This document shows, piece after piece, positions 34,022 to 46,548 of a DNA stretch of 64,000 nucleotides (positions are counted from its first letter, which is position 1; every line of letters begins with the position of its first letter). The translations under genes were made by a program, and so were the position numbers. Source of the stretch: Pseudacidovorax intermedius (GTDB lineage: Bacteria; Pseudomonadota; Gammaproteobacteria; Burkholderiales; Burkholderiaceae_C); assembly GCF_001476815.1 (NCBI RefSeq), contig NZ_LDSL01000004.1, positions 1 through 64,000 on the forward strand, read 5' to 3'. Below the pieces are notes generated by a model. That model had not been told where the DNA came from. It made no database searches and saw only the letters and a program-made list of their open reading frames with translations.

Positions 34022-34271
34022 TTAGGCAAAACCCTCGCTCCATGCCATAATCGCTGGCTCGCCTCAAAAAACATGGCGAGTTTGCGCATCTCCCTTCTTG
34101 CACATTGGTCGGCGGCTCCCGCTTCAGGCGGAACAGCTCGATGAACCCGACCACGGCGCCCTGATCCTCACCCGGATCGCCACGCGCCGATCGTCGTTGG
34201 ATGGTTGATGTTTTTCTGAACCTCCAACGTGCCTGCCCCCACGGGGCGGCGTGCGTTCACGATCAGTTTTT
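34022..34271 (+). promoter_or_regulatory. Promoter and structured leader of the DEAD-box helicase gene
   Basis: An extended -10 (TG-C-CATAAT, 34043-34051) has a weak -35 TTAGGC 18 nt upstream. The transcript would start near 34058 and run about 215 nt before the ATG. The leader holds two hairpins: TTGGATGGTT (34197-34206) with AACCTCCAA (34219-34227), and GCCTGCCCC (34231-34239) with GGGGCGGC (34243-34250). No open reading frame or Shine-Dalgarno is visible before the ATG. Leader-based control, as in cold-shock or self-limiting helicase genes, is likely but inferred. Confidence 0.6.
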
Positions 34272-36224
34272 ATGACCGACTCCCTGCATGAGCAGGGCGC
34301 AGCCGCGCCTTCGCTCGACCTTTCCCTTTCCACCGACACCGTGGCCGAAGGCCGCAACGATGCGCCCGAGGCCGTGCTGGCCGACGGCATCGCTGCCGAA
34401 GCCGTCGTGCCCGAGGGCCCGCATCCCTTCGCCGAACTGGGCCTGGCGCCCGAGCTCGTCGCCGCCGTGCGCGACCTGGGCTACACCGAGCCCACCGCCG
34501 TTCAGACCAAGGCCATCCCCATGGCCATGCCCGGCAACGAAGAGCAGGACGCGAGCGCGGCCGGCTTCGTCGACCTGATGGTCTCCAGCCAGACCGGCAG
34601 CGGCAAGACCGCCGCCTTCCTGCTGCCCGTGCTGCACACGCTGCTGCTGCAGCAGCAGCGCGAGGAAGCCGAGGCCAAGGCCGAGCACGCCCGCCTGGCG
34701 GCCGAAGCCGCCGCCCGCGGCGAAGCGCCGCCCAAGAAGCCGCGCCGCGTCAATCCCACGCAGTCGCGCAACTTCAAGGCCGCCGTTCCCGGCGCGCTGG
34801 TGCTGTGCCCCACGCGCGAGCTGGCCCAGCAGGTGGCCCATGACGCCATCGAGCTGGTGCGCCACTGCCGCGGCCTGCGCATCGCCAACGTGGTGGGCGG
34901 CATTCCCTACCAGCTGCAGATCGCCCGCCTGCAGAACGCCAACCTGGTCGTGGCCACGCCCGGCCGCCTGCTGGACCTGCAGCGCTCCATGCAGATCAAG
35001 CTGGACCAGGTGCGCTTCCTCGTCGTCGACGAGGCCGACCGCATGCTGGACCTGGGTTTCGCCGACGACCTGGCCGAGATCAACCAGCTGACCATCCAGC
35101 GCCAGCAGACCATGATGTTCAGCGCGACCTTCGCGCCGCGCATCCAGCAGCTGGCCGCCCGCGTCATGCGCGAGCCGCGCAAGGTGCAGATCGACAGCCC
35201 GCAGCAGAAGCACGCCAACATCCGCCAGGTGCTGCACTGGGCCGACCACGCCACGCACAAGCGTGCGCTGCTCGACCACTGGCTGCGCGACACCGCCATC
35301 CAGCAGGCCGTGGTGTTCGCCAGCACGCAGATCGAATGCGACGGCCTCGCCAACGACCTGCAGCAGGCCGGCTTCTCCGCCGTGGCGCTGCACGGTGCCT
35401 TGAGCCAGGGCCTGCGCAACCGCCGCCTGATGGCGCTGCGCAACGGCCAGGTGCAGATTCTGGTCGCCACCGACGTTGCCGCCCGCGGCATCGACGTGCC
35501 CAGCATCAGCCACGTCTTCAACTTCGGCCTGCCGATGAAGTCGGAGGACTACACCCACCGCATCGGCCGCACCGGCCGTGCGGGCCGCGACGGCATCGCC
35601 GTCACCTTCGCCGAATTCCGCGACCAGCGCCGCATCTTCGACATCGAAGCCTTCACCAAGCAGCCCTTCCAGGCCGAGGTGATCGAGGGCATGGAGCCGA
35701 CGCGCCGTGCGCCCACGGCCCAGCCGCCGCGCGGCGGTGCCGGCCGTGGCCGTGGCGCTCCTGGCGGCCGCCAGGGCGACGACCGTCGCCGCTCCTCCGG
35801 TTTCGCCGGTGGTGGCCGTGCGTCTGGCTGGGGCGAGTCGTCCTACGGTGACCGCCAGGGCGGCCAGCGTTCCCAGGGCTTCGACGGCGGTCGCGCAGGC
35901 GGCTTCGGCGGTCCGCGCCCGCAGGGTGGCGGCGAAGGCTTCGGTGGCGGCCATCGCGGCCACAACGAGGGCTTCGGTGGCCAGCAGCGTGGCCACGGCC
36001 ACGGTGAAGGTTTCGGCGGCGGCTACCGTGGCCGCAGCAACGAAGGCTTCGGCGCACCGCGCGGCCATGGCGAAGGCTTCGCCGGCCCGCGCTCGCACGG
36101 CGATGCGCGCCGCCCGGCCCCCGCCGGTCGCGATGGCCGGGATGCCCGTTCGTCCGAAGGCCCGCGCGGCAACGGCGGCAAGCCTTTTGCAGGTCGCGCC
36201 TTTGTTCCCCGTAGCCGCGGCTGA
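34272..36224 (+). CDS. DEAD-box ATP-dependent RNA helicase (RhlE/DeaD type)
   Basis: A 650-residue RNA helicase. Seen: the Q motif PTAVQTKAIPMAMPG, motif I SSQTGSGKTAAF, PTRELAQQ, ATPGRLLD, DEAD as VVDEADRMLDLGF, SAT in MFSATFAPRI, and motif VI HRIGRTGRAGR. An unusual insert of about 50 residues rich in charged residues and alanine (EEAEAKAEHARLAAEAAARG) splits the first RecA domain after motif I. The C-terminal about 170 residues are a glycine/arginine-rich tail with repeated GFGG and RG units, typical of RNA-binding tails. It has a long leader and is followed within 30 nt by tRNA-Ile. Confidence 0.93.
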   Translation: MTDSLHEQGAAAPSLDLSLSTDTVAEGRNDAPEAVLADGIAAEAVVPEGPHPFAELGLAPELVAAVRDLGYTEPTAVQTKAIPMAMPGNEEQDASAAGFVDLMVSSQTGSGKTAAFLLPVLHTLLLQQQREEAEAKAEHARLAAEAAARGEAPPKKPRRVNPTQSRNFKAAVPGALVLCPTRELAQQVAHDAIELVRHCRGLRIANVVGGIPYQLQIARLQNANLVVATPGRLLDLQRSMQIKLDQVRFLVVDEADRMLDLGFADDLAEINQLTIQRQQTMMFSATFAPRIQQLAARVMREPRKVQIDSPQQKHANIRQVLHWADHATHKRALLDHWLRDTAIQQAVVFASTQIECDGLANDLQQAGFSAVALHGALSQGLRNRRLMALRNGQVQILVATDVAARGIDVPSISHVFNFGLPMKSEDYTHRIGRTGRAGRDGIAVTFAEFRDQRRIFDIEAFTKQPFQAEVIEGMEPTRRAPTAQPPRGGAGRGRGAPGGRQGDDRRRSSGFAGGGRASGWGESSYGDRQGGQRSQGFDGGRAGGFGGPRPQGGGEGFGGGHRGHNEGFGGQQRGHGHGEGFGGGYRGRSNEGFGAPRGHGEGFAGPRSHGDARRPAPAGRDGRDARSSEGPRGNGGKPFAGRAFVPRSRG

Positions 36225-36231
36225 AAATCTG

Positions 36232-36240
36232 TGCCATAAT
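36232..36240 (+). promoter_or_regulatory. Extended -10 promoter of tRNA-Ile
   Basis: TG-C-CATAAT sits 11 nt before the mature tRNA 5' end, just after the helicase stop codon. It has the same extended -10 as the helicase promoter. No -35 is visible. Confidence 0.55.
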
Positions 36241-36251
36241 CTCATCTCTTC

Positions 36252-36580
36252 GGGCCGTTAGCTCAGTTGGTTAGAGCAGAGGACTTGAAGGGTGAGAGCC
36301 TAAAGGTGCTTTTTGTGCCAACGGCTGTTGCCCGACGGGTTGCTCAAGGTAAGTTCACTCTGCCTTGAAGTAGAACTTCTCAAATTCGGCGAACGCTAAC
36401 GTGCTCTTCCGAGCGCCAGGCCAACGCCGAGCGAAGCCCCGCAAGGGGAACGTGTAGAGACTCGACGGGAAGGCCGAAAGGCAAGACAGAGTCCAGACCA
36501 CAAACCGGAAACGGGCAGCGAAAGCTGAAGTGGGAGGCATAATCCTTTGGTCGCTGGTTCAAGCCCAGCACGGCCTACCA
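36252..36580 (+). tRNA. ileX: tRNA-Ile(CAU), split by a group I intron
   Basis: Exon 1 is 36252-36285 and exon 2 is 36538-36580. Joined, they give a 77-nt cloverleaf: acceptor stem GGGCCGT/ACGGCCT (first pair G-U), D stem GCTC/GAGC, anticodon stem GAGGA/TCCTT with loop CTCATAA, a TTC-containing T arm, discriminator A and an encoded CCA. The anticodon CAU with the surrounding GACTCATAATC matches the minor isoleucine tRNA, whose C34 is changed to lysidine by TilS so that it reads AUA. Without removing the 252-nt intron the anticodon arm cannot form, so splicing is needed for function. Intron-unaware tRNA finders may miss this gene. Confidence 0.9.
36286..36537 (+). ncRNA. Group I self-splicing intron (IC3-like) in tRNA-Ile
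   Basis: A 252-nt intron with no open reading frame of note. Core elements: P at 36381-36400, Q at 36416-36436, R (GTGTAGAGACTCGACGGG) at 36452-36469, S (AAGACAGAGTCC) at 36483-36494. P4: TCGGCG 36386-36391 with CGCCGA 36425-36430. P7: GACTC 36459-36463 with GAGTC 36489-36493. P8 is GCC-GAAA-GGC at 36473-36482. P9 is CCAC/GTGG enclosing two more GAAA-capped stems. P1: exon ACT with GGT at 36291-36293, ending in the required U-G pair. The terminal omega-G is 36537. It is close in wording to the Azoarcus tRNA-Ile intron, from memory. Confidence 0.92.
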
Positions 36581-36613
36581 GGACGGAAGAACGAAGAAAG
36601 TTTTGCTTGATAG

Positions 36614-36642
36614 TTGGCGCCACGAAAATGTCGTGCTATACT
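36614..36642 (+). promoter_or_regulatory. Promoter of tRNA-Arg
   Basis: TTGGCG (36614-36619), a 17-nt spacer and TATACT (36637-36642): a good sigma-70 promoter ending 10 nt before the tRNA. Confidence 0.8.
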
Positions 36643-36652
36643 AGAAAGCTCA

Positions 36653-36729
36653 GCGGCTGTAGCTCAGCTGGATAGAGTACTTGGCTACGAACCAAGGGGT
36701 CGTGGGTTCGATTCCTGCCAGCCGCACCA
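36653..36729 (+). tRNA. tRNA-Arg(ACG)
   Basis: A 77-nt cloverleaf: acceptor GCGGCTG/CAGCCGC, D arm GCTC-AGCTGGATA-GAGT, anticodon stem CTTGG/CCAAG with loop CTACGAA (anticodon ACG, normally edited to ICG by TadA), T arm with GTTCGATTC, and encoded CCA. It has its own promoter and terminator. Confidence 0.96.
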
Positions 36730-36748
36730 TATTTCCCTATGGGGAACG

Positions 36749-36783
36749 ACGGGTTAGCGCCACAAGCGCTAGCCCGTTTTTCT
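36749..36783 (+). terminator. Rho-independent terminator after tRNA-Arg
   Basis: A 12-bp stem (36749-36760 with 36766-36777, one G-U pair) and loop CACAA, followed by a T-rich run. Confidence 0.94.
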
Positions 36784-36814
36784 TTGTCCAAACGGTTTCT
36801 GCACAATCCGGCCC

Positions 36815-37384
36815 ATGAGCAAGGCCTTCACCAAAGAGAGCGATGCCGCCGACGAGGACGATGACCTCGGCGGACTGCCGCCCCTGCCGCCCGGCGGCAA
36901 GAACTACATCACGCCGGCCGGCTATGCGCGGCTGCGGGCCGAGTTGTTGTCGCTGATGGACGAAGAGCGGCCCAAGGTGGTGGAGGCGGTGCACTGGGCC
37001 GCCAAGAACGGCGACCGCTCCGAGAACGGCGACTACCTGTACGGCAAGAAGCGGTTGCGCGAGATCGACCGCCGCATCCGCTTCCTCACGAAACGGCTGG
37101 AGATCGCCGAGGTGACCGATCCGTCCGTGCACCATGGTTCGGACCAGGTGTTCTTCGGCGCCACCGTCACCTATGCGGACGAGACGGGCGCCGCGCAGTC
37201 GGTGACCATCCTCGGCATCGACGAGGCGGAAAGCACCCAGCGGCAGGTGAGCTGGATCGCGCCGATTTCCCGCACGCTGCTCAAGGCCCGGGTGGGCGAT
37301 GTGCTCAAGCTGGTGACGCCGGGCGGCACGCAGGAGATCGAGGTGGTGGCGGTGGACTATCCGGCGCCGGCGCGGGCGGCCTGA
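36815..37384 (+). CDS. greB: Transcription elongation factor GreB
   Basis: A 189-residue factor that enters the RNA polymerase secondary channel and stimulates cleavage of backtracked RNA. Seen: KNYITPAGYARLRAELLSLMDEERPKVVEAVHWAAKNGDRSENGDYLYGKKRLREIDRRIRFL in pieces: the coiled coil with the tip acidic pair in GDRSENGDY and the GreB-type YGKKRLREID. A FKBP-like C-domain follows. The N-terminal 28 residues are acidic and extra. A CACAAT hexamer ends 7 nt before the ATG with no Shine-Dalgarno. It is convergent with spoT. Confidence 0.95.
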   Translation: MSKAFTKESDAADEDDDLGGLPPLPPGGKNYITPAGYARLRAELLSLMDEERPKVVEAVHWAAKNGDRSENGDYLYGKKRLREIDRRIRFLTKRLEIAEVTDPSVHHGSDQVFFGATVTYADETGAAQSVTILGIDEAESTQRQVSWIAPISRTLLKARVGDVLKLVTPGGTQEIEVVAVDYPAPARAA

Positions 37385-46460: not shown

Positions 46461-46548
46461 GGAAGCGTGGCAGAGTGGTCGATTGCACCGGTCTTGAAAA
46501 CCGGCGACGGGCAACCGTCCGTGAGTTCGAATCTCACCGCTTCCGCCA
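46461..46548 (+). tRNA. tRNA-Ser(UGA)
   Basis: An 88-nt class II tRNA: acceptor GGAAGCG/CGCTTCC, anticodon stem CCGGT/ACCGG with loop CTTGAAA (anticodon TGA), a long variable arm (CGACGGGCAACCGTCC) typical of serine tRNA, GTTCGAATC in the T loop, discriminator G and encoded CCA. A TACACT-TGCGGC motif at 46399-46410 may be its promoter. Confidence 0.97.

Follow-up and report, generated by a model that had tools for sequence, protein, structure and literature searches.

The split tRNA-Ile(CAU) gene and its surroundings

As read from its letters, the region 36252-36580 of the window (the whole stretch of 64,000 nucleotides of Pseudacidovorax intermedius DNA that was analysed) is a tRNA-Ile(CAU) gene that is split after U33 by a group I intron:

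36252-36285, + strand: 5' exon of tRNA-Ile(CAU), ending at U33; read from the sequence, the joined exons giving a 77-nt tRNA(cat)
36286-36537, + strand: group IC3 intron of 252 nt, with terminal G at 36537 and no overlapping open reading frame of 80 or more amino acids
36538-36580, + strand: 3' exon of tRNA-Ile(CAU), starting at anticodon base C34 and ending in CCA; the joined exons give tRNA(cat)

Joining of the exons in silico yielded one 77-nt tRNA with the anticodon CAT, which ARAGORN labels tRNA-Met. The splice boundary cannot slide: the first bases of exon 2 and of the intron are C and U, respectively, and the last bases of exon 1 and of the intron are U and G. The preliminary description of the locus had the coordinates right, from exon 1 through the 252-nt intron to exon 2 with its CCA, and likewise the insertion after U33 (boundaries read from the sequence) and the complete 77-nt tRNA-Ile(CAU) that the two halves form once the 252 nt are removed (exons joined by script).

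Neither default ARAGORN nor Rfam at gathering thresholds detects the split gene; tRNA-Arg(acg) and tRNA-Ser(tga) are all that either reports for the whole window. A covariance search with Rfam Intron_gpI (RF00028), which had been proposed as a check, gave a match to 36277-36518 at a permissive threshold, with 32.0 bits (E = 2.6e-6 for a search of 651 bases) and thus under the gathering score of 50; this cut-off was passed by one of the 15 other loci of the 33/34 insertion site given to the search (L109) and by one of five loci of other sites (L061). ARAGORN -i names the split gene tRNA-Ser(tga). For that choice the intron would have to end in CAT and not in G, the variable loop has five bases as against the long arm of the tRNA-Ser(TGA) at 46461-46548, and the intron-free homologues of congeners read CAT, all of which makes an intron-bearing tRNA-Ser(UGA) gene exceedingly improbable. 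An intron with an endonuclease of its own was also considered, and was rejected because no open reading frame of at least 80 amino acids overlaps 36286-36537.

Upstream lies the gene of a DEAD-box RNA helicase (34251-36224; Pfam DEAD and Helicase_C), whose end is separated from the split tRNA by 27 bases, and downstream follow tRNA-Arg, greB and a gene of the spoT/relA family. In a promoter scan of 36100-36850 no consensus promoter was found before the split tRNA, the sole one preceding the tRNA-Arg that comes next. DEAD-box proteins can be chaperones of group I introns; a link between this helicase and the intron would be a guess, and the intron-free congeners examined have other DNA upstream. 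The closest named DNA is that of Pseudacidovorax (85-88% over 6.7-8.1 kb, five loci). Among 14 other genomes of the genus, five carry the intron at 95% identity and nine an intron-free 77-nt tRNA-Ile(CAU); in these nine the downstream alignment extends through greB (six genomes), through the tRNA-Arg region (two) or over the 3' exon only (one). Upstream of the intron-free tRNA, the gene is not the helicase in any of the three loci examined (L042, L046 and L049), being hrcA in L042 according to Pfam and the same by likeness in the other two. In L046 the intron-free tRNA-Ile(CAU) has a phage-type integrase gene (PF00589; 1739-2920, minus strand) on its immediate 3' side and may act as an integration site.

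The catalytic core and the 3' domain

The core and 3' domain of the intron can be drawn as follows:

36376-36381 and 36467-36472, + strand: 5' and 3' strands of P3 (core alignment)
36386-36430, + strand: P4-P5-P5a, with P4 formed by 36386-36391 and 36425-36430 (core alignment)
36431-36453, + strand: P6-P6a (core alignment)
36459-36463 and 36489-36493, + strand: P7, the guanosine-binding helix, with changes on both sides in three of its five pairs
36473-36482, + strand: short P8 with a GAAA cap at 36476-36479, read from the sequence and lacking covariation support
36498-36533, + strand: P9 domain, CCAC/GUGG with two GAAA-capped stems, read from the sequence

The core was assessed in an alignment, spanning P3 to P8, of eight introns of four tRNA and site kinds (tRNA-Ile 33/34, tRNA-Ile 36/37, tRNA-Leu and tRNA-Arg). 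Of its 277 cells, 93.1% are paired, as opposed to 28.8-47.6% when one side is shifted by 1-3 columns, a comparison that favours the structure because we drew it on the window sequence. Eleven of the 36 core pairs, in P3, P4, P5, P5a, P6, P6a and P7, have changes on both sides (23 cells, against a shuffled mean of 9.1), and one P6 pair is G-C in the five introns of the 33/34 site and C-G in the three others; P8 has no such changes in these eight introns. The proposal that the insert is a group I intron is therefore backed by covariation in the P3-P7 core, P4 and P7 included, and the U-G at the 5' splice site, the terminal G at 36537 and three GAAA-capped stems (caps at 36476-36479, 36508-36511 and 36520-36523) are all present, as had been stated. 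Folding of the single sequence is more stable than that of shuffles (z of -2.88 and -2.71, with one equally stable shuffle per 100 and one per 200). Energy minimisation of the window sequence does not, however, return the group I fold: in its result the P3 strand pairs with the 3' end of the intron. The two inner stems of P9 recur in the single-sequence fold, but the outer P9 pairing does not.

Four features place the intron in IC3, a subgroup label that we take to apply to tRNA-Leu, -Arg and -Ile introns: the P3-P4-P5-P6-P7 core with its P3/P7 pseudoknot, the U.G splice site within a P1 that is formed by a guide (36338-36341), the terminal G, and the grouping with tRNA-Leu, -Arg and -Ile introns, both in matches of a core model and in a tree.

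Relatives and lineage of the intron

The core model (R1) was built from the eight-intron alignment, in which five introns are of the tRNA-Ile 33/34 type. In the samples from the family, the order and the class it matched 80 of 399, 62 of 399 and 56 of 369 genomes, respectively; of 131 entries parsed with ARAGORN -i, 124 gave intron-bearing tRNAs and seven no usable one. The tRNA-Ile 33/34 type is present in at least 10 of the 399 genomes sampled from the family, counting the window's own. A pattern search yielded 74 loci, whose titles name Pseudacidovorax, Paracidovorax, Polaromonas, Rhodoferax, Limnohabitans, Lautropia, Burkholderia, Paraburkholderia, Trinickia, Aquitalea, Vogesella, Silvimonas, Derxia and Glomeribacter, as well as Halotalea, Dokdonella, Perlucidibaca and Pseudoxanthomonas (in the last, L243, a complete intron was not found). 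We take these last four genera to be gammaproteobacteria. Leaving out the five loci without a complete intron (L200, L242, L243, L244 and L252), the remaining 69 and 18 from genome searches make 87 introns, 71 of them distinct. Because the pattern extends from P7 as far as the first base of L8, a short P8 is built into the 74 loci; the 18 loci, and those 16 of 27 new loci that are of the tRNA-Ile 33/34 type, came from searches with either the gene or the core model. All 71 distinct introns end in G, which for the relatives was built into the boundary search: it fixed a T before the intron and a G at its end, within the loop, the tRNA-Leu(CAA) boundaries being set by eye. With T and G fixed in this way, no intron at 37/38 was found among the 159 distinct introns parsed. 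Group I introns have been described in tRNAs of cyanobacteria, alpha- and betaproteobacteria, most of them at 37/38 (PMC4033280).

A tree was calculated from 162 core columns of 148 introns, its bootstrap not being fully settled. Eleven of the 159 were left out, namely five without a P3 anchor, L143 with an odd letter, and L113, L117, L118, L124 and L135 with long branches; L109 was kept despite its long branch. The 71 introns of the 33/34 site form one clade (bootstrap 99, SH-aLRT 100), and the 15 introns of the 36/37 site form their own (100/100). Two tRNA-Thr(UGU) introns at 34/35 (L087 and L102), which differ in tRNA and site, are the nearest to the 33/34 clade and join it to give 73 rows (100/99). 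After four congeners, the row nearest to the window intron is that of Halotalea, which makes horizontal transfer likely.

The tRNA-Ile(CAU) intron of Azoarcus sp. BH72 also belongs to IC3, and the preliminary description had likened the window intron to it, as a close relative displaced by three bases. The resemblance holds at the level of a related type: introns of the Azoarcus type at 36/37 (L057, L089, L091 and others) are alike in tRNA, core, U.G splice site and terminal G, and similar in size (199-279 nt, against 252 nt here). The close kinship and the three-base shift are not supported. In the Azoarcus type, insertion is between U36 and A37 and the guide GUG serves the CAU, whereas the window intron lies between U33 and C34; and a comparison of insertion sites, as the preliminary description had advised, with the 36/37 introns as proxy for that of BH72, puts the two kinds into distinct clades. 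Judged by these stand-ins, the window intron is not an Azoarcus-site intron that moved three bases, and its lineage is widespread, related to yet distinct from the Azoarcus intron. The tRNA-Leu(UAA) introns of bacteria and plastids are IC3 introns as well; they share the core and the matches to the same model, but their site is 34/35 (40 rows of the tree) and they fall outside the 33/34 clade.

The searches brought up further group I introns. These are found in tRNA-Thr(UGU) (L087, L102), tRNA-Ser(UGA) (L117), tRNA-Lys(UUU) (L131, L132), tRNA-Arg(UCU) (L135) and, at the unusual 33/34 site, tRNA-Leu(UAA) (L113). In tRNA-Leu genes with the anticodon CAA (L154, L157, L165, L167-L170, L172-L174 and L184) the introns are of the same subgroup, but the 5' exon seems to end at C34, which would put C-G in place of the usual U.G at the splice site (L154 and L157 were fully read); the ten distinct introns of this kind form one clade (100/92). 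One genome (G220; L149 and L183) has two tRNA-Ile(CAU) genes, with introns at 33/34 and 36/37, one of which is identical to the intron of L222. The phage collection contains no match to the split gene, and no plasmid record covers 80% of it: the best 20 of 1,260 plasmid records match only 31% of the gene, at about 76% identity, in a stretch that is another intron's core, and 1,259 of the 1,260 blastn records are at 60-80% identity. On plasmid NC_004464.2 (L273), an unannotated stretch at about 2434-2732 looks by eye like a tRNA-Leu(UAA) gene interrupted by an IC3 intron; R1 scores 105 bits at 2506-2641, and aac(3)-IId is about 650 bases away.

The guide sequence and the 5' domain

The 5' domain of the window intron was assigned as follows:

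36282-36287, + strand: upstream strand of P1, exon GACU (tRNA positions 30-33) and intron UG, with splice site U33.G (RNAalifold alignment A2, coordinates transferred)
36290-36333, + strand: L1 hairpin, an extension of P1 (covariation, receptor motif and fold)
36336-36341, + strand: downstream strand of P1, CGGGUU, with the guide GGUU at 36338-36341 (GGGTT in 71 of 71 introns; covarying edge pair)
36342-36371, + strand: P2 hairpin, directly after the guide (RNAalifold and covariation)

Alignment A2 holds 30 of the 71 introns, chosen by us for similar hairpin length, together with five exon bases. In the RNAalifold consensus, G30, A31, C32 and U33 and the intron bases U1 and R2 pair with Y GGG UU. 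Five of these six pairs are invariant in the 30 introns and hence uninformative alone; the last is A-U in 13, G-C in 10, G-U in six and other in one, and across 70 introns it is A-T in 33, G-T in 18, G-C in 15 and other in four. The 5' domain as a whole has 92.9% of 716 cells paired (28.6-49.8% when slid), both-side changes in 132 cells (42.6 when shuffled) and a covariation score of 0.485 (0.167 when shuffled), values for a structure that was derived from the same alignment that scored it. The helices of the L1 hairpin covary in this set, and so does P2. The string GGGTTG occurs exactly once per intron in all 71 distinct introns, the copy in the window being at 36337-36342. GGGTTGC is found in 70 of them and in 15 of the 16 new tRNA-Ile 33/34 loci; the exception among the 71, from Derxia (L269), reads GGGTTGT and has GATAG where the 30 aligned introns have GTAG, so that a C-G pair of P2 becomes U-A. 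The guide, on this comparative evidence, is GGUU at 36338-36341, pairing with the exon bases GACU. By eye, the tRNA-Leu intron at the same 33/34 site (L113) has GGGUC at the guide, complementary to GACU. Pairing of GUU with AAC at the base of P2 was considered as the cause of the conserved GGGUUGC, and is less likely, as RNAalifold puts GGUU in P1.

The preliminary description had placed the guide elsewhere, with ACU of the exon pairing with GGU at 36291-36293 across a five-base loop, in keeping with an Azoarcus-type intron shifted by three bases. These bases are indeed complementary in the window sequence and near the splice site, but they occupy intron positions 6-8, where only five of the 71 distinct introns have GGT, and they pair inside the covarying L1 hairpin; the separate clades of the 33/34 and 36/37 introns speak against the shift itself. 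Such a P1 is thus very unlikely. With the guide at 36338-36341, three of the six P1 pairs in the window are wobble pairs; C34 of the 3' exon can pair with G36337, which we infer to be P10, and A35 faces C36336, so that both helices are weak. P1 and the anticodon stem may compete for G30 and A31, which is maybe why P1 extends into the intron.

A possible exchange of a loop and its receptor

In IC3 introns of tRNAs the GAAA loop of L2 docks into an 11-nt receptor in P8. In the 33/34 introns P8 is short, a stem of three pairs, and an internal loop of the L1 hairpin resembles the 11-nt receptor, with CCUAAA or CCUAAG on one side and AYGG on the other (in the window CCUAAA at 36299-36304 and AACGG at 36320-36324, a non-canonical form). 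A strict receptor pattern was sought in 154 of the 159 introns (five lacking a P3 anchor): its frequency in the P8 domain is 0 of 71 at the 33/34 site and 40 of 83 elsewhere, and in the 5' domain 34 of 71 and one of 83; the Fisher values of 1e-13 and 3e-13, respectively, ignore relatedness and are therefore overstated. The 36/37 introns have the pattern in P8 in only five of 15 cases, the 33/34 clade in none, and the two tRNA-Thr(UGU) introns show the usual arrangement, with GAAA in the 5' domain of both and the P8 receptor pattern in L087. It is possible, at a little short of even likelihood and from sequence patterns, that the receptor moved from P8 to the hairpin in the P1 loop while a GAAA-like loop moved to L8, so that the partners were exchanged. 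The L1 hairpins of 68 of the 71 introns were shuffled, and the pattern occurs in 31 of these 68 against a shuffled mean of 0.28 and a maximum of two.

The same introns also supply reasons to think that nothing was exchanged, the L1 hairpin being a spacer or having another role, CCUAAA not being a receptor and L8 being free. The strict pattern is failed by 37 of the 71, and the motif of the window is not canonical. The L8 cap is GAAA in only 30 of the 71, GUAAA in 36 and another in five (GUAAA-like in 40 of 71), and where the receptor is canonical (CCUAAG/UAUGG in L109 and L216) L8 is GUAAA and GUAAU, respectively, and not GAAA. GNRA hairpins persist in the 5' domain of 35 of the 71 (52 of 83 others) and are present in the P8 domain of 31 of the 71 (42 of 83 others); GNRA counts alone thus do not show an exchange. 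The short P8, moreover, is a property on which the 69 pattern-derived loci were selected. Against this second reading stand the receptor pattern in the L1 hairpins, far above that in shuffles, and its absence from the P8 domain of all 71 introns; we regard it as falling just below an even chance. If the exchange is true, it would link the P1 substrate helix with the catalytic domain at its P8 end, and docking could position the splice site where the exon leaves only C32 and U33 of the anticodon loop for the guide.

Copy number and the decoding of AUA codons

The preliminary description had held splicing to be essential if this is the only tRNA that reads AUA. The draft genome comprises 5,546,132 bases in 295 contigs (completeness 99.97), and a search with the split gene gave one full match and two matches of 33 and 34 bases to tRNA-Lys genes. 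The Rfam tRNA model has 47 matches, and among the 46 loci that contain them ARAGORN named no tRNA-Ile. Two tRNAs with the anticodon CAT (L020 and L021) are labelled tRNA-Met, as is the spliced window gene; we read these two as true tRNA-Met. Neither a second tRNA-Ile(CAU) nor tRNA-Ile(GAU) was found in the 5.5-Mb draft, the latter presumably lost together with the rRNA operons. Since tRNA-Ile(GAU) is missing too, genes may be absent from the draft, and the lack of a second tRNA-Ile(CAU) is not proof. A protein of the tilS family is present (137.4 bits, cut-off 93.6), and AUA accounts for four of 132 Ile codons in eight open reading frames (the names of six were checked, those of the other two are ones we presume), with two of the four in the guanylate kinase gene. 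The split gene is thus probably the sole AUA-reading tRNA of the genome. As no other tRNA-Ile(CAU) was found, a tilS-family gene is present and AUA is used, splicing is probably needed for AUA decoding, and it is plausible that the predicted splicing is essential for the cell.

A dead intron in a tRNA pseudogene, with AUA read by another tRNA that was lost from the assembly, would fit a draft of 295 contigs from which tRNA-Ile(GAU) is absent as well. The core and exons are intact, though, AUA codons are in use, and the intron is kept at 95% identity in the five congeners, in which no intron-free tRNA-Ile(CAU) is among the matches listed (to E of about 3e-4), an intron-free gene scoring E of 1e-7 or better in congeners that have one. 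This makes a dead intron highly improbable. Taken together, it is very likely that the only tRNA-Ile(CAU) gene found is interrupted between U33 and C34 by an IC3 intron that is predicted to self-splice.

A model for splicing and its implications

The intron most probably removes itself by splicing. From the established chemistry of group I introns, a guanosine bound in P7 would attack after U33, and the freed U33 would remain on the guide. The first base of the 3' exon, C34, would pair with G36337 in P10, and U33 would then attack after the terminal G36537, such that the exons are joined. TilS may subsequently turn C34 into lysidine, whereby the tRNA reads AUA. Less surely, the L1 hairpin and L8 would substitute for the usual contact of L2 with P8.

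Parts of this picture have precedents. CAU, the isoleucine anticodon, is described as the triplet that the Azoarcus system uses in vivo (PMC6274277). The authors of tRNAscan-SE 2.0 mention that tRNA-Ile2 of Acidovorax and Burkholderia contains group I introns (PMC8450103), hence the same tRNA in overlapping host genera, the part of the text available giving neither site, structure nor lineage; these introns probably include members of the 33/34 lineage. Available parts of PMC3984707 and PMC11835236 contain nothing on the 33/34 site. The site, the hairpin extending P1 and a loop-receptor exchange are undescribed in the mainly open-access literature searched, which is weak evidence of novelty. 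The hosts of the 33/34 lineage were partly known already, and the guide and 5' domain differ from the first reading of the locus.

In beta- and gammaproteobacteria this lineage interrupts the tRNA for AUA just before C34, the base that is modified to lysidine. It represents a natural experiment, in which a ribozyme reaches a site with only two bases of the anticodon loop free for its guide, and raises the question of whether a tertiary contact was re-engineered to suit insertion between U33 and C34. For the organism, it would provide a testable case in which the decoding of AUA by the cell depends on an RNA enzyme.
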